From Bolinopsis microptera (lineage: Eukaryota > Ctenophora > Tentaculata > Lobata > Bolinopsidae), in NCBI RefSeq assembly GCF_026151205.1, contig NC_087082.1, positions 5,649,908 to 5,713,907 of the forward strand: a stretch of DNA of 64,000 bases, written 5' to 3'. Below are positions 1,299 to 60,093 of this stretch, in pieces. The notes below the pieces were generated by a model that searched no databases, had not been told where the DNA came from, and saw nothing but the letters and a program-made list of their open reading frames with translations. Position 1 is the stretch's first letter. Each line of letters starts with the position of its first letter. Both the position numbers and the translations under genes were made by a program.

Positions 1299-22622
<21,324 letters not shown>

Positions 22623-30267: not shown

Positions 30268-30302
30268 GGGGGGGGGGGGGGGGGGGGGGGGAGGGGGGGG
30301 GG
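30268..30302. repeat. Poly(G) tract
   Basis: About 33 G in a row, broken by one or two other bases. Glycine-rich frames over it are artefacts. Confidence 0.85.
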
Positions 30303-30508: not shown

Positions 30509-31112
30509 GTATGGTGTAGTAAGAAGTGTAGTAAAACCGTACACTTTTTTACACTTATAATTACGTTAAACAAAACTATCTTCTAAAAATCTTCTTTTTT
30601 CTTATTTATCCAATAAGTCTTCACAGAGTACATTTCCAAATGTAAGACATACCTTTGATGGGAAAAGAAATGTCACTTTTTTACACTTTTTGAGACAATT
30701 TGACACTACACTTTAGCCTTTTTGGACGTGAGGAAAGTGAGGACTCCTTAAACTACATTAAATTAATTCCTTCCACATATGCCTACTATAACAATGAACA
30801 AGGTGGTAGGCGAACACACGCGCGATGAAAATATGTGAAAGACGCACGGTCTTGCTTCTCAGATTTCAGTTATAAGGAAAATAACGTTGTTTAAATACAA
30901 TTAACTAAATTTGAAGCAAAGACTTAAATTACTTGTCACCAAATAAAACACTATATATTTCATTAATCTCTTCATTATCTCAAATATTTCCGTAAAAACA
31001 GGAAAATCACATAAATTAAAGTCAGCGGAAAAACATCCCCTTTTAAATATTAAACGATGTGTCGGATGATGAATATGAACAGATCTAACTCCTAAATTAA
31101 AACTGAAAACTC
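30509..31112. other. Intergenic, downstream of valyl-tRNA synthetase
   Basis: AT-rich with several ttacactttttta-like stretches. No gene recognised. Confidence 0.4.
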
Positions 31113-31434: not shown

Positions 31435-34400
31435 TAATTTCCGAACGGCTTAATCAAGAAAACGGTAAGAGTTATGGGACTGGTTTTTTCGGTTTAATTG
31501 ATGATTTTGTACCCCAAATGTGGTACTTAAAAGTGTTGTTGTTTAGTTGTTATCGCTTTTGTTACTCATTTTGAGCTCTCTTATCGCTGATCTTTATAAA
31601 AATGGATACACGAAATTGCGAAAAGCTTCAAATTTTCGAATGAATTGCTTAAGGTCGCCAACAGTACTATCGTAAAGCTTCAAAGTGCCGCGATCAGAGA
31701 TAAAGATACTGCATAAAACTGCAAGAGAAAGAGAAAGAGAAAGTCATCACGAACAAAACTGACCAGCTTGAGACAGTAACTTCAACGGTTCAGTCGGAGA
31801 TGAAACGTAATTGCGACATAGCTAAGAAAAGCTGCATTGAATCAGTTGTCACCCAAGAGAAGCTCACAAAAGAGGTTAAGAGTTAAGACAGTAGTGAAGG
31901 AGGAGGACAAAGGTAAAAACATTATGGTATTCGGACTTCATGATGAGAAAGAAGAAGATCTTTCAGCAAAGATCAACGAGTTGATGGTCTCTATTGGCCA
32001 AAAACCGTGTACACAGGACTGTGTTAGATTAGGAACTTTTTCAGAAGGTTCGAGCAACAGGCCGGTCAAAGTTGTCGTCAGAAGTTCTGATTCTGTTCAA
32101 ATGGTTTTGAGCCAAGCTAGAAAACTGAAAGAGTCAGGCAACTTCAAAAACGTGTACATTAGTCCCGATAGAACATGCGAAGAACGAACTGCACATGAAC
32201 AACTTGTGAAAGAGATGAAGATTAGAATTCAGAATGATCCAAACAACTATCACTACATCAGGAATGGGACAATCATGAGCAAAGTGAAATTATTTTCTAA
32301 ATCTCAATCGTACTTAAAAATTAGTAATAAGCTATCAGTGATTCGTAAGTGATTAGTAAGTGATTAATAGGCGATTAGTAAGTGATTAGTCAGTGATTAT
32401 TAAGTGATTAATAGGTGATTAGTAAGTGATTAGTAAGTGATTAGTAAGTGATTAGTAAGTTATCAACAAGTGATTGGTAAGTGATTAATACGTGATTAGT
32501 AAGTGATCAACAAGTGATTGGTAAGTGATTAATAAGTGATTAGTAAGTGATTAGTAAGTGATTAGTAAGTGATTAGTAGACACTATAATAATTATCAGTA
32601 AGAAGTGAACCTGTTAATCTCCTGAACAGGGTCCACAAGTCCCTTCACCAGAACATGAACTTCACATCTGTTACCCACAGTGCCTACAGCAGTACCTGAG
32701 AGAGTACAGTTTAGAGGAGAGAAGGGTTTAGTCAGGGTAGTAGAGTATCGTCGTAGTGGGAAGTAGTAATGGGGAGAACACATGATAGCATTGTATAAAA
32801 GTGTAGAGACCCCCCCCCCCCCGTGCATTGTATAAGGGTATCTGGATATAGAGGTTCACTAACCGAGGGGTATTGACTCGTTAAGATGTAACTTAGTACT
32901 TCCTATCAAGTCCTCCATAACAGCTATGAGATCAGACAATGATTCCGAGGTCGATAAGAACACTTCTGGTTTTGCTTTTGACTCCAAATACGTATCTTTC
33001 ACAGATCTGCAAATTTTAACCATCAGAACATCTGGGTCTCGCAGTCTTAATATCATATTTATTATTTATACATACCACATATATAGTGGTAAGCTGACTC
33101 TTGCTGTAAAATAAAAGTAAAAGTGAGAAAAACATTAAACAACTACTGCTAACCTGGCGATATGTTTTTTTTGTTGTACCTGGCGGTATGTACAATGTCC
33201 TTGACGAGGTTTACTCTAGACTAACCTGGCGGTATGTACAATGTCCTTGACGAGGTTTACTTTAGACTAACCTGGCGGTATGTACAATGTCCTTGACGAG
33301 GTTTACTCTAGACTAACCTGGCTGTATGTACAATGTCCTTGACGAGGTTTACTTTAGACTAACCTGGCGGTATGTACAATGTCCTTGACGAGGTTTACTC
33401 TAGACTAACCTGGCGGTATGTACAATGTCCTTGACGAGGTTTACTCTAGACTAACCTGGCGGTATGTACAATGTCCTTGACGAGGTTTACTCTAGACTAA
33501 CCTGGCGGTATGTACAATGTCCTTGACGAGGTTTACTCTAGACTAACCTGGCGGTATGTACAATGTCCTTGACGAGGTTTACTCTAGACTAACCTGGCGG
33601 TATGTACAATGTCCTTGACGAGGTTTACTCTAGACTAACCTGGCGGTATGTACAATGTCCTTGACGAGGTTTACTCTAGACTAACCTGGCGGTATGTACA
33701 ATGTCCTTGACGAGGTTTACTCTAGACTAACCTGGCGGTATGTACAATGTCCTTGACGAGGTTTACTCTAGACTAACCTGGCGGTATGTACAATGTCTTT
33801 GACGAGGTTTACTCTAGACTCCAACTGAGTGTCCAACCAGAGCGCTCCAGTTCGGGGGTAGGAAGCTACCACCAGTGAGGGTGCTGTCTCTGTTCCTAGC
33901 CGAGGTAATCTCTGCCACAGCTCCTCTATAATAGGCAGGGTATTTTATTAGATATTAGATAAGGAGCGAGATAAGGAGCAAGATAAGGAGCGAGACATGC
34001 TCCCTCAGCTGTGTGCATCTCTCCCACATAGAACCAAGCCAGCAAGCCGGGTAAGTTTCATCGCTTTTTCCAGACCGACGTTTGAAACCGTAATGTTAAC
34101 TATTGCTAAAAGTTCAGAACGACTAATTACCTGAAATGAAGGGCATGAAGGGGTGGATGAGCCTGAGTCCCACATCCAGACAAGTGCAGAGAGTGTGTCT
34201 AGCTGCTTCCTTCTCATCCTCACTACCCTGAGAGAGATGTAGGGTAATAGACAGCGTGTTGTTATCATGGCTTTTAGAATGTGTAAACAGCACGTGACGT
34301 TAACAATAACAGTTACCATGGTTACCTTGTAAAAGACGCGTTTTGTGGCCTCTAAGTAAACATCGCACAGGTCGTATAACCAGAAGTTGTAGATAGCAGT

Positions 34401-34877: not shown

Positions 34878-37800
34878 CTGGAGACAGGGTAATGTCTTGA
34901 AAATAATAATTATAATGCAGAAACATATTGGTTACTGACCTGATTTAGATACGAGCACTAACATTACCTTATATGGTAGTGTTACTATGGTTACTAACCT
35001 TAGTTAGATACGAGCACTAACATTACCTTATATGGTAGTGTTACTATGGTTACTGACCTGAGTTAGATACGAGCACTAACATTACCTTATATGGTAGTGT
35101 TACTATGGTTACTAACCTGAGTTAGATACGAGCACTAACATTACCATATATGGTAGTGTTACTATGGTTACTAACCTGAGTTAGATACGAGCACTAACCT
35201 TATGGTAGTGTTACTATGGTTACTAACCTTAGTTAGATACGAGCACTAACATTACCTTATATGGTAGTGTTACTATGGTTACTAACCTGAGTTAGATACA
35301 AGCACTAACATTACCATATATGGTAGTGTTACTTTGGTTACTGACCTGAGTTAGATACGAGCACTAACATTACCTTATATGGTAGTGTTACTATGGTTAC
35401 TAACCTGAGTTAGATACGAGCATTAACATTACCATATATGGTAGTGTTACTATGGTTACTAACCTGAGTTAGATACGAGCACTAACCTTATGGTAGTGTT
35501 ACTATGGTTACTAACCTGAGTTTGATACGAGCACTAACATTACCATATATGGTAGTGTTACTATGGTTACTAACCTGAGTTAGATACGAGCACTAACCTT
35601 ATGGTAGTGTTACTATGGTTACTAACCTTAGTTAGATACGAGCACTAACATTACCTTATATGGTAGTGTTACTATGGTTTTCATCAAAATAGTTTTATGT
35701 ATTACGCATGCTTTTAAATCGCTAGTATAGTTTGATAAGCCGCCGATAGATTGTAAGCTGGTGCTGATAAGACTGCCTTACACTCAAATTTACAACAAAT
35801 GTACATCCAACCAACTCCTAATATGGACATCATCTCTTCGGACTCCGGGCTGCCAGGTAGTGGTGCCCATACCACTACCTCTACAGAACACTGCCTGGCA
35901 ACCCCTACCACACACGGTATGTGCGTTAGTACTCAAACAGACATAACTTTTGGACAGTGGCTTCCTACCCTGTCACCTAAACTATGTCTCGATCTGTTCG
36001 AGCACGTTAAGGACGAGCACATGGCGCACGAAATCTCGTACAACAATTCACTGGGAATTGATTTAGGGATTAAATCCAACACTAAGACTTCAAAACGTAA
36101 AGTTCTATTGAAACAAAAACTGGAGAACGATTGTAAAAATGCTAACTTTATCAATTCGTTTACGGTAGATGTCGCTAAAATAGATTCGTTAATGAACCAT
36201 TTTTCCGGTTTGCTGGAGAAGGCAGAAACAACACTAGAGGACTACAAGACAGAAGTTCGGAGAACAACCGCAGACTGCGTCGGAAACAGCGCACTCCCTT
36301 CTGCTCCAGCCCCACCACAGTTAGTGATCAGCTCACCCTCCGCAGCTCTACCTACTCCGGTATGTAATCTAAGTGTGAACTTTAATGACATTAATTGGAT
36401 GGACATCTGCAAGGGCATGAACTTCCGCAGAATCGCATCCCGATCCGTACAGTACTTCGGAGCAACAGATTACCGCTATGGGTCAACCGTGCATCATGCC
36501 AGAAACTATCCTCAGAACTCCGTTATTGACCACATTTTTACAAACATTTCGAATGCATTAGATGACCCTACGTTTAATAAGGAGCAGGTAACTTGTCTAA
36601 TCACCAAATATGAAAACGGCAAGTGCCATATACCCTTCCACAGTGATGATGAAAATGAGGTCACTGGTGACATCATTACACTCAGTCTTGGGGCTTCTAG
36701 AGACCTGGTATTTCGTAGCAAAGTCGGTCCGGTCAAACAACAGATCCACAAACTTGATCATGGATGTGTGTATGTGAAGACACGTGAATCACAGAATTTC
36801 TGGGAGCATGGTATATTGCCACAACCAGAAACTCAGGACTGCAGAATATCGCTTATGTTCAGACGCCTCTCTCAGAATAACCCCCCTCGCAAAAAAATCC
36901 CGAGGATCCACGAACCGATTCATAAGCCTACAGTTACTGAGCAGTCTCAACCTAAGGAGCGTCTATTATTCTTGACGGACTCGCTTCTCAGAGATGTTCC
37001 TTTCGACCTTCCTAACGTACACTGCATCAAACGCGAAATGTACCAGTTATCCAAAATTTTAGATCACGAACAGTATATTTCTGGCTCTAAAATTGTCATA
37101 ATTTCTTCTGGTATAAACGATTTATCTCGCTATGACCACCACCACCACTCCCTTTCATGTGATTTTAAAAGAAATATTGATTATCTAATTGAGAAATATC
37201 CTAACACGACTTTTATATTTAATTCTTTAGTTCTCACACGTTTCTCGTGGCTTAATGAGGAGGTTAAGCTTTTTAACAGTTTTATTTTTGCTCAAAATGT
37301 CAAATTTTTTTCTGAAATTTTTTATTTTTTATCCAAAAAAACTTGTGTTAAAGGAAAGGGAACCCCAAAAAAATTCCAAAAAAAAATTTAGTCCCTTTTT
37401 TTCCCCCGGGTTAAAAAATTTGGGGGGCCAGTTTTTTTGAAAACAGGGCCCAAAGGGGGGGTTTTTTTTTCCATTGGGAACGGGGAAAATCCCAAAAAAA
37501 CCTTTATCATAAAAAATTTACTAAAAAATTCAAAAAATGTCGTTTTCAACCCAGTTTATCGCACCCTTAAATCAAAAAATTTTTCCCTTTAAAAATTTGC
37601 CCCAAAAATCAGCCCCTAAACCATTACAAAAAAAATACAAAAATTTTAAATAATTAATTCAAAATCTTCATAACTTTTAAAAAACTTTTTCTCCACAAAA
37701 AAACCAAAACGAATTATTTTTTCTATTAACTGAATGGGGACCCGACAATTTTAAACAAAATTTCCACTTTTTCACTTTTTCCCGGGCCCCTTTTCTTTCC

Positions 37801-46800: not shown

Positions 46801-49800
46801 TATAATCCCTGTCCCTCCCTGTTCATGTTAAGATGATATAAAGAGGGCGTGGTAAATGGCCAACAAACATTGACGAGAACATCTACATCTACATCATTCC
46901 AGACACCAAACATCATAATATTGGTCCTAATATCTATCATGATTCAATAGTAGTAGAAATAATTTCCAAGAACTTACCAAGTTTTGTCGAATTGGCTCGG
47001 GATGAGCTTCAGTTCACCATCTTGTACTTTCTTGATGGACCTCGCTGCCATGTCTTTACAGTTTATCCACCTGAATAGTGAATAATTATCTCATCATATA
47101 AACAAAATCCATCGCCTCTTGATAAGTTTAACTTTGCGCAGTGGAAATGAAAAATGAGTTGAAATATTTTGAAATGTTTCCCATTGTTATTTTGAAATAT
47201 TTCCCATTGCAATTTTGAAATATTTCCAATTGCAATTTTAAAATATTTCCCATTGTAATTTTGCGGTTTTGATAAATGGAAACCTGATGAAGATGTCGAT
47301 AACATTATAACACTAGTTAATCTTATAACACTTGTTAAGTTAACAACACTAGTTGTTTCTCTTGTTAAGTAAGCTGCTAGCATTCTGAGACTATATTTAT
47401 CAGTGTATTTTGACACAATGCTCTATATCCTGTATTAGCTGTACCAATTCTTATACGTAGCTAGTGTATTTAAACACTAAGAAGTCACATTTTCCTTTAT
47501 TATAAAACGAACTATTCTTTTATTAAGCCAATTCGTGACACAGTCTTTGTACCTCTCTCATATCTTCACTGGTTAATGGATTTCACAACATATGTATTTG
47601 TAGAGCGGCAGTTCGACTAATTTAAAATACACCCAGAATTCGAATAAACCATTGTTCAAATTTATTGTGCGGGGTTGAGCAATATTTGTATTGTCTATAA
47701 TACTCACCTTCGTTATTGAATAAACAATTAAACATTGCATCATCAGATAGAACACAACTTACTAGTTGTCTTGTCCATTTGTTTCAATTGTAATGATCGT
47801 GTTCGTCAGACCAGCAATCCTACTGGTAACTCTGGGAGTTCTTACAGTCCAGAGTAACGGAGTAAATCATAGTGTTGTTGATGAGGTTCCCACAGCCGAG
47901 GGTAACATGAAGGATCCAACTTATCCTATTGAGCAAAAAGATGAAGCAAAGAATACTCCAATAGACAAGCCGGAGAGAATCCCGTATCCTCAACAAACAA
48001 CTGTAAAGAGAGAGCAGGCGTACGCTCCAGTTCCCACAACAACTATTCAGGCAGAAGAGGACTGGACTGGAATCATTGTCCTGAACACAGTGAACTTCTT
48101 ATTATCAGTGTGTTGTATTGTCCTCAACATCATACTAACTTACACAATGCACGGTAAGAGAGCGTCTAGGGGGTTCGTTCAGGATCTGTACCTCCAGAAC
48201 AGTATAGCAGACTACTTCCTAGGACTGGGGGTACTCGCACAGAGCCCTGTGTTGTATCTCATGATTTCCAGAGGGAGTGAAGTGTCCGGGTTAACTGTGC
48301 CAGTGTATATCATCTACTTTGTGACGGCCCTTGCAATCAGGATGAGCGTGTTCATGAACTGTGTGTTGGGAGTGGTCCGGTGTCTGAACATCATTCAGCC
48401 CTTTTATCTGATAAACAAGAGGGTAATCTCTGTGTGCACGTTACTGTATATGGAGGTCTGTGTTATAATAGTAGGTGTGGATTTGTGGCAGTTTAGTGAG
48501 AAGGTAGGGATAGAGAACCAGGTGTTCCTGGTGAAGTCACTGGTTATAAAGGGGCTGTCCGGGTTCGGACTGAGTCTTGTAACCATGGAGAAGGAACAGT
48601 ACGGTCCCACCTACTTCGGGTACCATCTTGGTAATCTCTTCCAGTTTATCTTACCTACTGCTGTACCGACGTTGTTCTGCTTTGTGCTAATGATAGTGCA
48701 GCTTTGCCACTTGTCAAGGAAACATACTCGCCATGTACTGACTCAGGAGAATGGAGTAAAGCAGCTGAAAAGGGAGATCTCCATGTTACCGAAAGCTAGC
48801 TTAACTATCTTCCTACTGACTTGTATCTACGTGAGCACCTCAGCTGTTTCCATAGTAACCTGGCTGGTAGTGGATGGAAGAGGAGGGTATCTAGGTTCCA
48901 AGAGTAATTACGAGAGTTTGCTAGAAAAAAAGAGGACTACAACTCCGTGGGGTGATCTGACAGCTATATACTTCTCCTTATCCACATGTGCTCTGATCTG
49001 CTCCACGCTCACCCCTCTCACACTGTTAGTTAGAGGTACTGGACCTGCCTTTAACTCCGTCAGACAGATGTTCTTCAGACTGAGCAGCTCTAGAGAAACT
49101 AATTAAGAAACCAAATAATAGCACACTCAACCAAGACTGGCTAATAAGTTAACACTGAACAATTGTTTCTGTTCAAATTTAAAATATTAAATAAGTTGAT
49201 TGTTTTAGCAGAAAGTTTATGTTTCTAATGTAACGCTCTGTTACTCCAGTAGTAGTATGTTGTGAATCAACGGTAAGACGAGTTTTATATTGCGATACTT
49301 CCTTTGTTGTTTTAAAATTACTTCGTGAACAGAGAATGGCTAGCTTGACATAAGATAATTTGATAAAGAGATTATTGCAACTAATACAAAAGGTTGTGTT
49401 CTTACGCGTTAATACAATTGTTGTGTGGTGACCGTTTATTTATAAAGATCACCAAAGCACAAAGCAAATCTTTGGAAAATGGAAATTAGAACAATTTTAA
49501 CCAAATCTTCGGGCTTCAATTCCAGACTGGGTAAGGCCAGAGGAGAGGGGGGTAAACACATGTTTTCTATTTTCACATATTATGTGACAGAGCAGCAGAG
49601 CTGCTGGAGAAGAACAAGTAGAGAAAAACTGCATCGAAATCCGACCTTGCGTTTCTGAGATATTGGGCGCAAAAGTTTGAAGTTCACCTGTTATAACAAG
49701 TAAAACATAGGGTAAACCTCAACGTTAGGAAAATACTGGTCACACCCATTACCTGAGTATGTCCTTACTTACCACTGAGGTTTAAGAAGGGGCTCCACTA

Positions 49801-50182
49801 TGTCCTTACTTACCACTGAGGTTTAAGAAGGGGCTCCACTATGTCCTTACTTACCACTGAGGTTTAAGAAGGGGCTCCACTATGTCCTTACTTACCATTG
49901 AGGTTTAAGAAGGGGCTCCACTATGTCCTTACTTACCACTGAGGTTTAAGAAGGGGCTCCACTATGTCCTTACTTACCACTGAGGTTTAAGAAGGGGCTC
50001 CACTATGCCCTTACTTACCACTGAGGTTTAAGAAGGGGCTCCACTATGTCCTTACTTCTGCTGCACGTGGGCACCACCATATCGTGATCCAGACACTGCA
50101 CGTAGAGATCGAGCTCTTCTAGCGCACGGCGCACTGCGACACGTGCGTCAAACCTGCGCATCCCCTCGAACATCGGACACAC
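31113..50182 (-). CDS. VARS1: Cytosolic valyl-tRNA synthetase (partial)
   Basis: The enzyme charges tRNA-Val in the cytosol. Visible exons, N- to C-terminal: 50182-50019, 47070-46978, then a gap, then 34877-34709, 34483-34326, 34227-34131, 33925-33778, 33006-32864, 32695-32611 and 31299-31113 (stop TAG at 31113-31115). All junctions are GT-AG with matching phases, and the last seven exons give 328 residues to the stop. The exons with the HIGH region lie off-window or unrecognised upstream of 50182. Those with KMSKS should lie between 35.7 and 46.9 kb but are hidden in degraded sequence or displaced. A GPCR sits on the opposite strand in one intron. Three exons have tandemly repeated 3' ends with their splice donors. 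Confidence 0.92.
31340..31434. repeat. (GTGTGG)n / (GT)n microsatellite
   Basis: gggtgt-rich units followed by about 20 GT repeats, in the last intron of valyl-tRNA synthetase. Confidence 0.9.
31592..32352 (+). mobile_element. LINE ORF1 fragment (coiled coil plus RRM-like domain)
   Basis: In several frames from 31592 the translation first gives a helical, charged coiled-coil stretch ([19 protein letters not shown]), then after a frameshift near 31880 a domain with [34 protein letters not shown], and [19 protein letters not shown]. This is the RRM-like nucleic-acid chaperone of L1/Tx1-type ORF1 proteins. No endonuclease or reverse transcriptase follows; an 11 bp repeat starts at 32340. It is a dead insertion in a valyl-tRNA synthetase intron. 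Confidence 0.7.
32340..32580. repeat. 11 bp tandem repeat (agtgattagta)
   Basis: About 20 variants of agtgattagta, immediately 3' of the LINE ORF1 fragment and ending 30 bases from the splice donor of exon 32695-32611. It may have grown from the 3' end of the LINE insertion. Confidence 0.85.
33158..33817. repeat. 46 bp array of exon end plus 5' splice site, about 14 copies
   Basis: Each unit, on the gene strand, is the last 41 bases of valyl-tRNA synthetase exon 33925-33778 (encoding [11 protein letters not shown]) followed by gttag, the first bases of the intron. Every copy therefore ends in a complete donor (gccag/gttag). The unit length is not a multiple of three, so use of a distal donor would usually shift the frame. 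Confidence 0.9.
34928..35685. repeat. About 59 bp array containing an exon end and donor, 13 copies
   Basis: On the gene strand each unit contains tgctcgtatctaactcag/gttagt. The first part encodes CSYLTQ, exactly what valyl-tRNA synthetase needs before ARDLN of exon 34877-34709, and it is followed by a donor. Some copies are shortened by about 9 bases. The body of the parent exon is missing: after 35690 sequence changes to the AlkB/SGNH ORF element. Confidence 0.8.
35799..37290 (+). CDS. Transposon-type ORF with AlkB-like dioxygenase and SGNH-like hydrolase domains
   Basis: Open for about 500 residues before the sequence degrades. Residues 60-155 are charged and partly helical. Residues 200-356 match the AlkB type of Fe(II)/2-oxoglutarate dioxygenases: HSD (281-283) and H337 as the metal triad, and RISLMFR (349-355) as the R-x5-R oxoglutarate motif. 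Residues 388-490 look SGNH-hydrolase-like: [10 protein letters not shown], then [12 protein letters not shown] with the G-x-N-D block. AlkB members reverse alkylation of nucleic acid, and SGNH domains occur in LINE ORF1 proteins. A retroelement origin is inferred from the domain pair and the endonuclease-like fragment downstream. It replaces the expected exon of valyl-tRNA synthetase at this point. Confidence 0.65.
38380..38460 (+). mobile_element. Possible start of a LINE endonuclease domain
   Basis: One short readable frame gives [20 protein letters not shown], which looks like the first strand and helix of LINE apurinic-type endonucleases (NvrSLngki). It is on the same strand as, and 1.1 kb after, the AlkB/SGNH ORF, so it may be the next ORF of the same element. 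Short and in bad sequence. Confidence 0.35.
44345..44585. repeat. Degenerate cagacaaca-type repeat
   Basis: Short units of cagacaaca and cagacgacaaca repeat for about 240 bases inside the degraded block. The Thr/Gln/Asn-rich frames over it are not credible proteins. Confidence 0.7.
45480..45790. repeat. Degraded minisatellite (ataaccatgggaaccta unit)
   Basis: About eight copies of a 34-36 bp unit containing aaccatgggaacc and a C run are visible despite heavy base errors. Confidence 0.65.
46483..46696 (+). CDS. Candidate terminal exon of an unrecognised gene
   Basis: After an acceptor-like cattccag (46475-46482) the plus strand reads [15 protein letters not shown] and QIARLTLDK, then with one base skipped near 46569 reads [17 protein letters not shown] and ends GEQTGS at TAG 46694-46696. 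Amino-acid composition looks genuine and helical, and the frame break lies at a repetitive aacaacaac where an indel error is likely. No family recognised, no upstream exon found, and it would lie inside the valyl-tRNA synthetase gene on the other strand. Confidence 0.3.
46978..50182 (-). CDS. VARS1: Valyl-tRNA synthetase exons at the end of the editing domain
   Basis: 50182-50019 encodes [20 protein letters not shown], then [19 protein letters not shown], the segment that leads out of the CP1 editing insert. 47070-46978 continues [19 protein letters not shown] and ends PSQFDKTW, just before the expected Rossmann segment with ISRQLWWGHR, which I could not find. The phase across the 3 kb intron is consistent. 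That intron contains a 446-residue GPCR on the other strand and an array of the exon end (49765-50050). Confidence 0.9.
47150..47275. repeat. Tandem repeat of gaaatatttcccattgcaatttt
   Basis: Four to five units of about 27 bases in a valyl-tRNA synthetase intron, near the acceptor of exon 47070-46978. 47281-47350 has further short acactagtta repeats. Confidence 0.75.
47766..49106 (+). CDS. Seven-transmembrane receptor, GPCR-like, with signal peptide
   Basis: Single exon, 446 residues. Met10 (47793) starts a typical signal peptide ([19 protein letters not shown]), so it may be the true start. A long polar extracellular part rich in Pro, Glu and Lys (to about 100) leads into seven hydrophobic segments. 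Helix 2 has [10 protein letters not shown], helix 3 ends [11 protein letters not shown] (203-213), a DRY-region relative, and a basic third loop (KHTRHV, KQLKRE) precedes helix 6. The NPxxY of helix 7 is replaced by LTPLTLLV. It looks like a divergent, lineage-expanded rhodopsin-like receptor. It is nested on the opposite strand in an intron of valyl-tRNA synthetase. Confidence 0.8.
   Translation: MSCPFVSIVMIVFVRPAILLVTLGVLTVQSNGVNHSVVDEVPTAEGNMKDPTYPIEQKDEAKNTPIDKPERIPYPQQTTVKREQAYAPVPTTTIQAEEDWTGIIVLNTVNFLLSVCCIVLNIILTYTMHGKRASRGFVQDLYLQNSIADYFLGLGVLAQSPVLYLMISRGSEVSGLTVPVYIIYFVTALAIRMSVFMNCVLGVVRCLNIIQPFYLINKRVISVCTLLYMEVCVIIVGVDLWQFSEKVGIENQVFLVKSLVIKGLSGFGLSLVTMEKEQYGPTYFGYHLGNLFQFILPTAVPTLFCFVLMIVQLCHLSRKHTRHVLTQENGVKQLKREISMLPKASLTIFLLTCIYVSTSAVSIVTWLVVDGRGGYLGSKSNYESLLEKKRTTTPWGDLTAIYFSLSTCALICSTLTPLTLLVRGTGPAFNSVRQMFFRLSSSRETN
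49107..49764. other. 3' flank of the receptor
   Basis: AT-rich and without coding signal. It leads into the exon-end array of valyl-tRNA synthetase. Confidence 0.4.
49765..50050. repeat. 41 bp array of exon end plus 5' splice site, 7 copies
   Basis: On the gene strand the unit is aaggacatagtggagcccc, cttcttaaacctcagtg and then gtaagt, that is, the last 36 bases of valyl-tRNA synthetase exon 50182-50019 ([11 protein letters not shown]) followed by a consensus donor. The parent exon itself contains agaagtaaggacatag, which already resembles a donor, and the duplication joins exon end to this internal site. Confidence 0.92.
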
Positions 50183-52415
50183 CTGCAGGGGATTAGAAGG
50201 TAGTTACTTTAGCGTGCAGTGAAATGCTAATCAATTCCTTCCGTTTTCTGACATACGTGCCATTTTCGAGATTTTGGATTCCATTATCCAATTTCCTTTA
50301 TGGGAAATCCCTGATAACCATCAAAAACCATCAGAATGTGAACTAGAACCGACCAGATATCCGGTACGGCTTTAATATCCGTTCCAGTCTAGTTTCCAAT
50401 AACTTGACCGGACATTCAACCGGACATTCCTCCTAAAAAATTTTCATCAAAAATCCTGAAATGTATATATTTTGTCGTCTAAATCTTTGCAAAGGGACAT
50501 CCAGTCTCTAGTCAGTGCCCTCGGTGAATTCATGGTAGCTTGTAATCTGTCAGCGAATGTTAAAGACCCGTTTATTTGAGACAAAGAAAGGAGTCAAAGC
50601 AGCTACCCAGATCAATGATAATCATAAAACAATCTTCATTCATGACCATTGCAAGCAGAGGGTTCCTACTTTATTGTGGCAAGCAAGTCCGTCGCTAACT
50701 CCCCTTATACCAAGTATTAAAATTAGATACATTATCCTTGGTGACAGGTTCCTAGTGTAATCTCATTAGTTATAGCGACGCCACGAACGTTTCAGAGCTG
50801 CTTTTTGGTTTTATTTCTAGAACAATCTCTACATTCTTCAAATATACGTTCTGATTTTATTCCAACTCATTTCTAGCTCTGCTCATACAGCATAGAACAA
50901 CCAAGAACCTGGCCACCTGGGTAGGGTTTATTACCCGATTAGTAAGTAGATGTGTATTATGAAATATATTAAGAAGTGTTTGAGCTCTCGGCATGTGTTC
51001 AGATAACGGACGTGAGCCGGGTCCGAAAGGGGCTGGTTCTAGTAATCTCGTATCCAAATACTTTGGCCATGAGATTGATATCTCCAGTGGTTCCTAGTTG
51101 TCGGGGATATGTAATGATTGGTTCCCAGTTGACGGAGCTGATTGGATTTCCCAAGCTTGCATGTTAATTAGTTAACTAGGTAAAATTGAAAGGTTCCCAG
51201 TTTTCCGTCAGCCCATCAGTGACCTCTGCACTGCTCGCACAACATATCAATCAGTGACTGCTGCTCGCAAAGCAGAAAATTTGTTGAAATTTGAGGGCAT
51301 GAAGTATGAACACATTTAGTTGGACATTCTTTATTTTGCTCCTCAAATTGTGCTTCTCAAATTTTCCCTTCTGAACACCCGGTTCCAGTCCGGCAAAACC
51401 CGGCAAACTGGAAAATAGATTGAAATCTGGCCGTTAGCCAATACCCAAGACCGGCCGGTTCCTAGTGTAAACTCCTTAGCCCTGATGCGAGCGAGGCCGT
51501 TTAATAAAGACATACTGGCTTATGCGAACAGAGACTCTACTCCATAATTCAACAGATTAGGGCAGTGGGGGAATTACCACCGGGAAAACTGTTAAGCTGC
51601 ACCAGCTGAGACCAGCTCGCTGCTCGCTGCTAGCACGGGGGGAGGGGGGGACTCGCACACTTTAATACGCCAGAGGAGAGAAGGCGTACAATTACCACGC
51701 TCCTAAGGTGAGATATACCTGTTCAATAGTCAACATCAAAACCTCGTGCAATGCAAAGGAATGACACGGCATGAGGTGCTGCCCCCCCCCCCCCCCCCCA
51801 GCTCCACATCTACATATTTTATAGTAGTAGTGTACCTTGTGTCAGCTATAAAACTGGGATCACGTTCGGACTATAAGTTTAATAGCTGAGTTTATGGCTT
51901 ATTGTAATACTCCTATCTTAATTCGGCGAACACGTATTAAATTATCAGCAGCTGGTTTATAGCCATTAGCCATTACTGGGCGTGTTCAAGCAGGAGCTAA
52001 TATGAGAAAATCGAACACACGCATTGGATCAACTTCAAGATTATTCTGGAAAAATCGAACATGTGGTCGAACACGCGCATTAAAATTGTCCGCCATTCCT
52101 GTTTGAAACGTTACACGTCTCGTTTGACTTTGAGTTTTGACACGCTGGTCGTGTACAATCCACTATTTTATTACTTATCTGCTGTTGTGTTTATCAATTT
52201 GCAGTGTACTGCAAAGATTACAATATTATAGAATAATACATTTCATTGAAAGATTTTTTGACCACATAACTTAAAGAATTGAAATAGGCCCTTTTAATCT
52301 GTAAGTGGCGGTATAGGATAACAGTACGGCAATTAAATTATTGAGGCCTTCCCAGACAAAAGATCGACTGTTTTAATTGCTTGTAGCCTTGTTACTTTGT
52401 AGGATTATTTCTTAA
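50183..52415. other. Non-coding DNA with scattered repeat fragments
   Basis: No gene recognised. ggttcctagtgtaa occurs at 50745 and 51462, a poly(C) tract of 18 is at 51782-51799, and short mirrored segments occur around 51210-51290. Upstream exons of valyl-tRNA synthetase are expected on the minus strand but I cannot see them here. Confidence 0.4.
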
Positions 52416-53978: not shown

Positions 53979-54860
53979 TAGTAAGGGGAAAAGTGGCATT
54001 CCGTTGGATTCGAATGTTCACAAGGATTTCTCAACGGAATATGGTAGTTAGGACCCCTACGAACATAATTAGACTTGTTGCCAATTTTGTATCTCAACGG
54101 AAACACCACTTTTACCACTTTTTACCACCTTTGTACCACCTTTCTGGTTTGCCAAATATCTTTAGTTGTGAACATCATAGAAGGCTGCAAATTAACCTAG
54201 AATGTTTATCTTATCAAGGAGTAAAACTTTTGTATCAAAAATTTTTACATCGGACAATCAGCTAATTGGATAATTACCAATTAGTTAATCACCAAAAAAA
54301 GTGAAAATTTTTTATTGGCTTAAAATGATTTAAATCGTTTTGAAACACGGAGAAATGTAGTTTTTAGAAAAACTTCAAAAATTTTTCACTTAAAATTTTT
54401 TTTCGAGACTTTAAAAAAAAGTTTGAAAATTTGAAAATATTTTTTTCCGCCAAAAGTGATCGAATTGCATGAAACGTGGATAAAAATGCTTTGCAGAAAA
54501 ACTTCGAAGATTTTTAGATTGGGGAATACTAAAATCATCAATATTTGAAGTTGGAGTTCAGTAAATCTCGACATATATAAGTAATTTAGGAATATGCTTA
54601 GCGGAAGGGCTGGACCTGAAAAGGTAAGACGAACCGATTTTACAGCTGGTACTATCATTTTTATTGATTTCAATGATCAAACCTCTGTCAATCTTGCAAT
54701 CTATCCGGGTACTGAATGTACCGGACCTCTTATTTACCTCTATAATTATACCCATTGTTGGCAAGAAATGCGATTTCTCACAGGGGTTTCTTTAAACTGA
54801 GCACTTTTTGCACTCTCGCAACTCGCAAGAGGCCTGTTATTATAGGGGGGGGGGGGGGGT

Positions 54861-54922
<62 letters not shown>

Positions 54923-56746: not shown

Positions 56747-56807
<61 letters not shown>

Positions 56808-58717: not shown

Positions 58718-60093
58718 GCGTTTTACTGTTGCAGACTGTATCACTTGCACTGTTCTATTGCAGTACTCCTGCACTGTAGCTCTGTGTCCCTGACTACACC
58801 GTGGTTTACACTGCCCCTAAACTGCAATCTTAAGTAACTTTAGTTCCGGCACTCTTTGGCCATTAAAATAACCAACTCCAATGAAACCCCGTGTAGCTAC
58901 GTTCTGCTACATCCATGCTAGCACCACCCAGCTACCACCAGTTTACTCTAAATCTAGCTATTTCTAGCAACTTTTCAATGCTATCTCCAGCTCTATCCCG
59001 ACCCTGGCAATGACATATGGGGGTTATTCGAGGTATATGGCATAGCAAACGAAGCGGCATGCGCATTCACAATACAAAAAAGCCACAATGGATGATGGAA
59101 GGTATATTTACACTCGCTTCCTATAATACCAGGCCTCTTGCGAGTTGCGAGAGTGATAAAAAGTGCACAGTTTAAAGAAACCCCTGTGAGAAATCGCATT
59201 TCTTGCACAACTGGGTCTAATTATAGAGGTAAATAAGAGGTCCGGTACATTCAGATACCCGGTATAGATTGGCAAGATTGACAGAGGTTTTGATCATTGA
59301 AATCAATAAAATGATAGTACAGCAGGTAAAATCGGTTCGATCTTAAATGGTCCTTTTGTGCTGTTTCTTTATGTGGAATTTGATAAAGCTGTATTGTAAT
59401 TAGTTACGAAACTCTAATATTGTGTGGTTAACCTTTTTCAGGTCCAGCCCTTTCCGCTAAGCTATTCCTAATTACTAAAATATGTCGAGATTTACTGAAC
59501 TCCAACTTCAAATATTGATGATTTTAGTATTCCTCAATCTAAAAATCTTCGAAATTTTTCTGCAAGGCATTTTTATCCACGTTTCATGCAATTCGATCAC
59601 TTTTGGCGGAAAAAAATATTTTCAAATTTTCAAACTTTTTTTTTGAAGTCTCGAAAAAAAATTTTAAGTGAACAATTTTTGAAGTTTTTCTAAAAACTAC
59701 ATTTCTCCGTGTTTCAAACGATTTCAATCATTTTGAGCCAATAAAAAATTTTCACTTTTTTTGGTGATTAACTAATTGGTAATTATCCAATTATATTAGC
59801 TGATTGTCCAATGTAAAAATTTTTGGTACAAAAGTTTTACTCCTTGATAAGATAAACATTCTAGGTTAATTTTCAGCCTTCTACGACGTTCACAACTAAA
59901 GATATTTGGCAAACCAGAAAAGTGGTACAAAGGTGGTAAAAAGTGGTAAAAGTGGTGTTTCTGTTGAGATACAAAATTGGCAACAAGTCTAATTATGTTC
60001 GTAGGGGTCCTAACTACCATATTCCGTTGAGAAATCCTTGTGAACATTCAAATCCAACGGAACCCTTAAATCGACCACTTTTCCCCTTACTAT
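58718..60093. repeat. Right arm of the 6 kb inverted duplication
   Basis: Mirrors 53979-55224 plus 58022-58132. The centre (58133-58717) is unique. This arm has no nested element and no long poly(G), so it is the better reference for the ancestral repeat. Short frames in it are mirror images of those in the left arm. Confidence 0.85.

Follow-up and report, generated by a model that had tools for sequence, protein, structure and literature searches.

The valyl-tRNA synthetase (VARS) gene of the ctenophore Bolinopsis microptera carries at the 3′ end of one exon a minisatellite whose 46-bp unit consists of the end of that exon and its 5′ splice site. Four further arrays span other splice junctions of the same gene, making five in all (3 donor, 2 acceptor), and they belong to the already described type of repeat known as mirages. 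We think it quite probable, judging from the sequence, that such an array begins as a duplication seeded by microhomology, expands, and would be tolerated since the junction nearest the exon stays intact and in use. The window referred to below is the whole 64,000-nucleotide stretch of contig NC_087082.1 that was analysed (positions 5,649,908 to 5,713,907); coordinates are window positions unless given with a prefix such as C11, and a slash marks an exon/intron boundary.

The first of these arrays, which we call the index array, involves the following features:
33778..33925, minus strand: VARS exon of the anticodon-binding domain, with the index array at its 3′ end (translation, homology and junction reading)
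33178..33820, minus strand: 46-bp minisatellite of 14.0 copies, unit made of exon end plus 5′ splice site (TRF)
33154..33179, minus strand: degenerate 26-nt last copy, then CAG/GTTAGC (read from the sequence; ancestry putative)
32862..33006, minus strand: region with the next VARS exon, which starts at 33006; the 3′ limit is approximate (homology and junction reading)

TRF gives a period of 46 and 98% matches for the array. When the minus strand is cut at CAG/GT, the order begins with the exon copy, continues with 13 units that each measure exactly 46 nt, and closes with the degenerate 26-nt copy, after which the intron goes on. Units 1-9, 11 and 13 show no differences, unit 10 is off by 2 bases and unit 12 by 1, and the exon copy differs solely at a silent site, with AAA for the AAG found in 13/13 intron units. 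Fourteen near-identical adjacent 46-mers are not attributable to chance, which we state as a judgement and not as a computed chance value. The exon ends ...GTA CAT ACC GCC AG/GTTAGT, and because 2 bp (AG) are common to the ends of the unit, it can be cut either as 41 exon nt plus GTTAG or as 43 exon nt plus GTT. Fifteen CAG/GT donors can be counted, following window bases 33778, 33732 and so on to 33180 and 33154. Thirteen of the 15 read CAG/GTTAGT, and the last two are CAG/GTACAA at 33180 and CAG/GTTAGC at 33154; the latter may be the original, pre-expansion start of the intron. An earlier note on this DNA had described an exon end and donor in about 14 tandem copies, with exon limits at 33925 and 33778, multiple donors and a unit of 41 coding bases plus GTTAG, and all of this agrees with our reading, the alternative cut being equally possible. 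Its statement that every copy has a complete donor holds for the 13 identical sites and not for the two that deviate.

The same note had assigned the exon to valyl-tRNA synthetase, and matches in PDB, Pfam and NCBIfam support the assignment. With the exons on either side of the junction joined, the 198-aa conceptual protein matches the ValRS structures 4xkz (E 1.5e-15) and 1gax (E 2.7e-10), as well as Pfam Anticodon_1 (E 6.2e-28, residues 44-168), the latter match crossing the junction at about residue 157. The NCBIfam valS match (E 2.2e-34) is below the cut-off that this model sets for full-length proteins, as expected for a query that covers a fragment. With E. coli ValS as query, exons were located across C11:5576-5726 kb, and the gene presumably works. 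A C-terminal VARS protein gave 11 matches in the whole assembly; ten fall on exons of two gene copies, both on C11, and the remaining one is a weak match on C2. That search scores the best candidates only, and among these neither an array-free copy of the index exon nor a VARS retrocopy, which was wanted for reading donor use, was found. Short exon peptides used as Pfam and PDB queries gave no useful match, and a VARS exon that should lie between ...KPQW and ...YNWLDD was looked for and not found.

The earlier note had also held that the choice of donor should matter because 46 is not a multiple of 3. We reject this frame-based logic: whichever of the 14 alternative donors is taken, the reading frame runs into one and the same in-frame TAG (...HTAR-L-V-stop), three codons beyond the true junction, and this holds also for the alternatives at +138 and +276 nt that are in frame. 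The choice is therefore binary, between the first donor and a truncated protein, and the relation of 46 to 3 is irrelevant.

Two of the four further junction arrays lie entirely beyond the window. The features that bear on them are:
49758..50057, minus strand: array 2, donor, 41-bp unit in 7.3 copies, exon end ...LLKPQW plus GTAAGT (TRF; identical second copy at C11:5587328-5587627)
50018..50203, minus strand: VARS exon before array 2, given as open frame limits (tblastn, E. coli ValS residues 332-386, E 1.4e-06)
34929..35679, minus strand: array 3, donor, 59-bp unit with CTCAG/GTTAGT, 13.1 copies (TRF)
33926..34010, minus strand: site of array 4, the 3′ splice site region of the index exon, single copy in the window (read from the sequence)
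C11:5720121-5720259, outside the window: array 5, acceptor of the exon ...LVNWSCSLKSAISDIE, 46-bp unit in 3.0 copies

In the second VARS copy array 3 starts at the exon end ...FALCSYLTQ/; this exon was not found in the window, where a transposon-like open frame and low-quality filler come next to the 59-bp array. The open frame (544 aa, 35757-37391, plus strand) adjoins the array, looks transposon-like by eye and may contain an AlkB-like stretch. Array 4, an acceptor array with a 91-bp unit made of the acceptor and about 8 exon nt, is present in about 3.8 copies in the second VARS copy only.

Other repeats were seen on the same contig and in the window. A 49-bp array of 24.4 copies at C11:5642838-5644031 has a donor-like AAGGTTAG on its minus strand, and a 36-bp array of 8.5 copies lies between VARS exons at C11:5723372-5723677, its minus strand being readable by eye as a 12-aa repeat. 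TCAGGG hexamer arrays occur at 6849-7072 and 15791-16055, each followed within at most 200 bp by a 37-bp satellite (7254-10108 and 16233-17747). A satellite at C11:5599894-5619163 has monomers about 1.8 kb apart, with related pieces at 53979-54868 and 59120-60093, and single-base runs of G or C occupy 30268-30302 (35 bases), 54845-54921 (77) and 56749-56807 (59).

The 3′ part of VARS is assembled twice. Window positions 30638 to 69413, the upper end lying past the window, align with C11:5572317-5599196 in collinear blocks separated by long unmatched stretches. Two exons compared between the copies are identical (146/146 and 186/186), and the remaining non-array blocks reach 93.7-99.6% identity when gap columns, as many as 2451 in a block, are left out. 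The index array occurs at two places that lie 108 kb apart and agree in their flanks and in the order of variants, and it measures 643-827 bp; the second copy has 17 intron units against 13, or 18 against 14 in total. The 18-unit array equals the 14-unit array with units 10-13 repeated once as units 14-17, a 184-bp block, plus one base change in unit 4, which supports recent turnover, in line with the recent expansion or homogenisation suggested in the earlier note. The 59-bp array likewise differs (13.1 and 20.5 copies), as does the 91-bp unit (1 and about 4), whereas the 41-bp array shows no difference between the two VARS copies. Only in the second copy did the E. coli query match four catalytic-core blocks (residues 409-620); their absence from the window copy is probably explained by a region at about 37.3-43.8 kb (limits by eye) whose stretched homopolymers resemble poor, unpolished gap filler. 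As far as the assembly report describes it, this genome was built with wtdbg, HiRise scaffolding, TGS-GapCloser gap filling, haplotig purging and pilon polishing (PMC10232365). Given this procedure, two haplotypes placed in tandem are a fair reading of the two VARS copies, the alternative being a real partial duplication. Since the copies may be haplotypes or an assembly artefact, the difference between 14 and 18 units may be allelic and not between loci.

Five of about 35 VARS junctions carry an array, a denominator that we estimated from the 18 exons placed by homology. Arrays of period 15-150 with at least 2.5 copies, 46 of them after merging, occupy 10.7% of the 173.9-kb VARS locus, so that plain coverage alone would place 3 to 4 of 35 junctions under arrays, not far from the 5 observed. 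Asked where array edges fall, the locus departs further from expectation, with 0.56 expected and 5 observed within the last 60 exon bases (Poisson 0.0003). As a control we drew on 108 matches to the CCT and myosin-head families (35 + 73), of which 46 were used after dropping intronless full-length CCT, most matches with internal stops and any that lay beyond the DNA retrieved; of the 92 ends, 91 were tested, match ends being approximate exon ends only. A copied exon end was seen at 0/91 of them. All five arrays within 40 bp of a control end were read and none repeats an exon end, one of them (C2:20663295, 80% matches) touching its donor by about 1 base. Two arrays were inspected and left out of the count, one that is perhaps an acceptor array (L058) and one that abuts a donor (L061). 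The VARS and control counts differ (Fisher p 0.0013; 0.005 without the index array), and arrays are denser at the VARS locus than in the controls, where they cover 3.5% of 86.9 kb. We treat the excess at VARS junctions as no more than suggestive: the finding itself led to the choice of VARS, the figure of 35 is self-estimated and the locus is rich in arrays. Among the myosin-head matches, two adjacent ones, C3:9154012-9154203 and C3:9154255-9154485, cover the same myosin-head positions and are perhaps duplicated (mutually exclusive) exons.

Genome-wide, triple CAGGTRAGT sites spaced 34-64 bp apart number 294 + 486 compared with 0 + 4 for the reversed motif, a comparison with one control motif in which many matches share one array and which counts donor triples irrespective of whether the array touches an exon; at least 9 loci are represented among the matches listed, compared with 1 control locus. 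Single CAGGTRAGT sites number 4370 against 2576 reversed, and in 267 kb of fetched DNA 3 against 4. These counts are a hint that donor-bearing arrays occur elsewhere in the genome beyond what the frequency of single sites would lead one to expect. One region, C3:5823835-5828486, is filled over about 4.6 kb, with gaps, by a 46-bp unit that can be read by eye as ...FNMFSAVFDMKCQ/GTGAGT, the other part of the unit being perhaps coding, and is a candidate giant mirage.

According to the reading that we prefer, a short tandem duplication with 2-bp common ends (AG) would have taken in the final 41-43 exon nt together with the first 3-5 nt of the intron, and replication slippage or unequal exchange would then have enlarged the array to 14-18 units. 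Because all copies past the first are intronic, the array could be tolerated as long as the spliceosome takes the exon-proximal junction. The first donor may be chosen through exon definition and co-transcriptional commitment, with nonsense-mediated decay clearing whatever products other donors yield. VARS is an essential gene, so the correct junction must form despite the array. The unit structure, the AG ends, the gain of a 184-bp block, the lack of an array-free exon copy among the best candidates scored, the shared stops and the anatomy known from amphioxus are all consistent with this proposal. Some points count against it. In classic experiments with duplicated donors the donor nearest the acceptor was often favoured, which predicts use of the last copy; the comparison of 14 with 18 units may be allelic; and with 5 of about 35 junctions in VARS against 0 of 91 in the controls, the crowding in this gene is not fully accounted for by arrays capturing junctions at random where repeats abound.

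That crowding, together with the 780 donor-consensus tandem triples against 4 for the reversed motif, is the basis for a different reading, in which tandem duplication is drawn to junctions in this genome and units bounded by AG/GT are spliced out in successive rounds, each of which re-forms the same junction. We regard this as improbable; if true, dozens of identical splice sites would be harmless by construction and would feed the growth of introns. A related proposal, that the intron is removed stepwise by recursive splicing, draws on the form of the unit (GTTAGT...GCCAG/GT), in which a splice to any downstream boundary restores both exon end and donor, and on the AG/GT found at each boundary of index units 1-13 and of the 59-bp array. 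A 46-nt unit is, however, very short for an animal intron, its 3′ end ACATACCGCCAG has no pyrimidine tract, and the 41-bp array, whose units end CAGTG/GTAAGT, would not be neutral, all of which makes stepwise removal quite unlikely. The array might instead act as a switch for unproductive splicing, with a tunable share of transcripts using downstream donors, meeting the TAG and decaying, so that array length sets VARS output. The position of the same stop three codons in from every alternative donor, the identity of 13/15 donors and the difference of 14 and 18 units between the assembled copies would suit such a switch. An early stop is, however, fairly likely at the start of any intron, the identity of the units resembles recent turnover and not selection, and the other VARS arrays include acceptor arrays and have different sequences, and we therefore find a regulatory role unlikely.

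Two further explanations seem to us less credible still. A repeat collapsed or inflated during assembly might be suspected from the low-quality filler close by and from the partial duplication of the gene in the assembly, yet the array is merely 643-827 bp long and occurs twice, 108 kb apart, with flanks and variant order alike, and an artefact is accordingly very unlikely. Likewise, we give very little weight to the idea that the host intron itself was born by tandem duplication of an AGGT-containing segment. The AG/GT...AG/GT geometry fits the model as it is set out in the published accounts (PMC3087553, PMC2891723), but past the array the intron extends for about 150 nt more and ends in a normal acceptor at 33006, and GTTAGC, a possible intron start from before the array, is still visible.

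Searches of the literature on splice-site duplication returned no close match other than the amphioxus reports. The term mirage stands there for repeats, similar to minisatellites, that copy exon/intron boundaries; one report describes them in globin genes (PMC3087553), and another adds Adh3, troponin C and PGBD5 (PMC3902484). In the descriptions given in these reports, the amphioxus cases (BflGb6/BflGb9, Adh3, TnC, PGBD5) share with the VARS arrays tandem copies of a 5′ or 3′ boundary, AG/GT signals in many units, inner units that are alike with divergent cluster edges, and length instability, in amphioxus between haplotypes. What characterises a mirage is a unit lying across an exon/intron boundary, the capacity to affect both 5′ and 3′ boundaries, and instability of length between alleles or copies. 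In VARS the unit crosses such a boundary in a gene that we take to be functional, arrays are found at both donors and acceptors, and lengths differ between the assembled copies (14 vs 18; 13.1 vs 20.5; 1 vs ~4). The differences concern the host phylum, cephalochordate or ctenophore, which reflects the history of reports and defines nothing; the number of units, 14-18 and 13-20.5 in VARS against 6 and 3 in the two haplotypes reported for BflGb6 (PMC3087553); and the presence of five arrays within one gene, unlike the amphioxus mirages. Regular splicing was undisturbed by the amphioxus arrays according to the authors' RT-PCR (PMC3087553, PMC3902484), whereas the VARS arrays are described here from DNA sequence. 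Intron gain according to the Rogers model, by AGGT tandem duplication, also yields units bounded by a potential acceptor and donor, but in the cases described (Drosophila, PMC2891723; potato) a new intron arises from exon sequence, whereas in VARS the repeat encroaches, from the edge inwards, on an intron that already exists. Ordinary intronic minisatellites or VNTRs, such as the 38-bp repeat described in TERT intron 6, resemble the VARS arrays in their head-to-tail units and changes in copy number; unlike them, the first VARS unit is coding exon with a functional splice site. Searches of the ctenophore literature found no report of such arrays.

Mirages were described from amphioxus, and the presence of five in an essential ctenophore gene suggests that they are spread more widely among animals, with the VARS index array as an extreme case of the repeat type described from lancelets. 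Arrays of this kind can upset gene prediction and short-read mapping. Junction arrays have been proposed as a route toward new introns, and fifteen near-identical donors in a row amount to a natural experiment on how the spliceosome chooses among sites.
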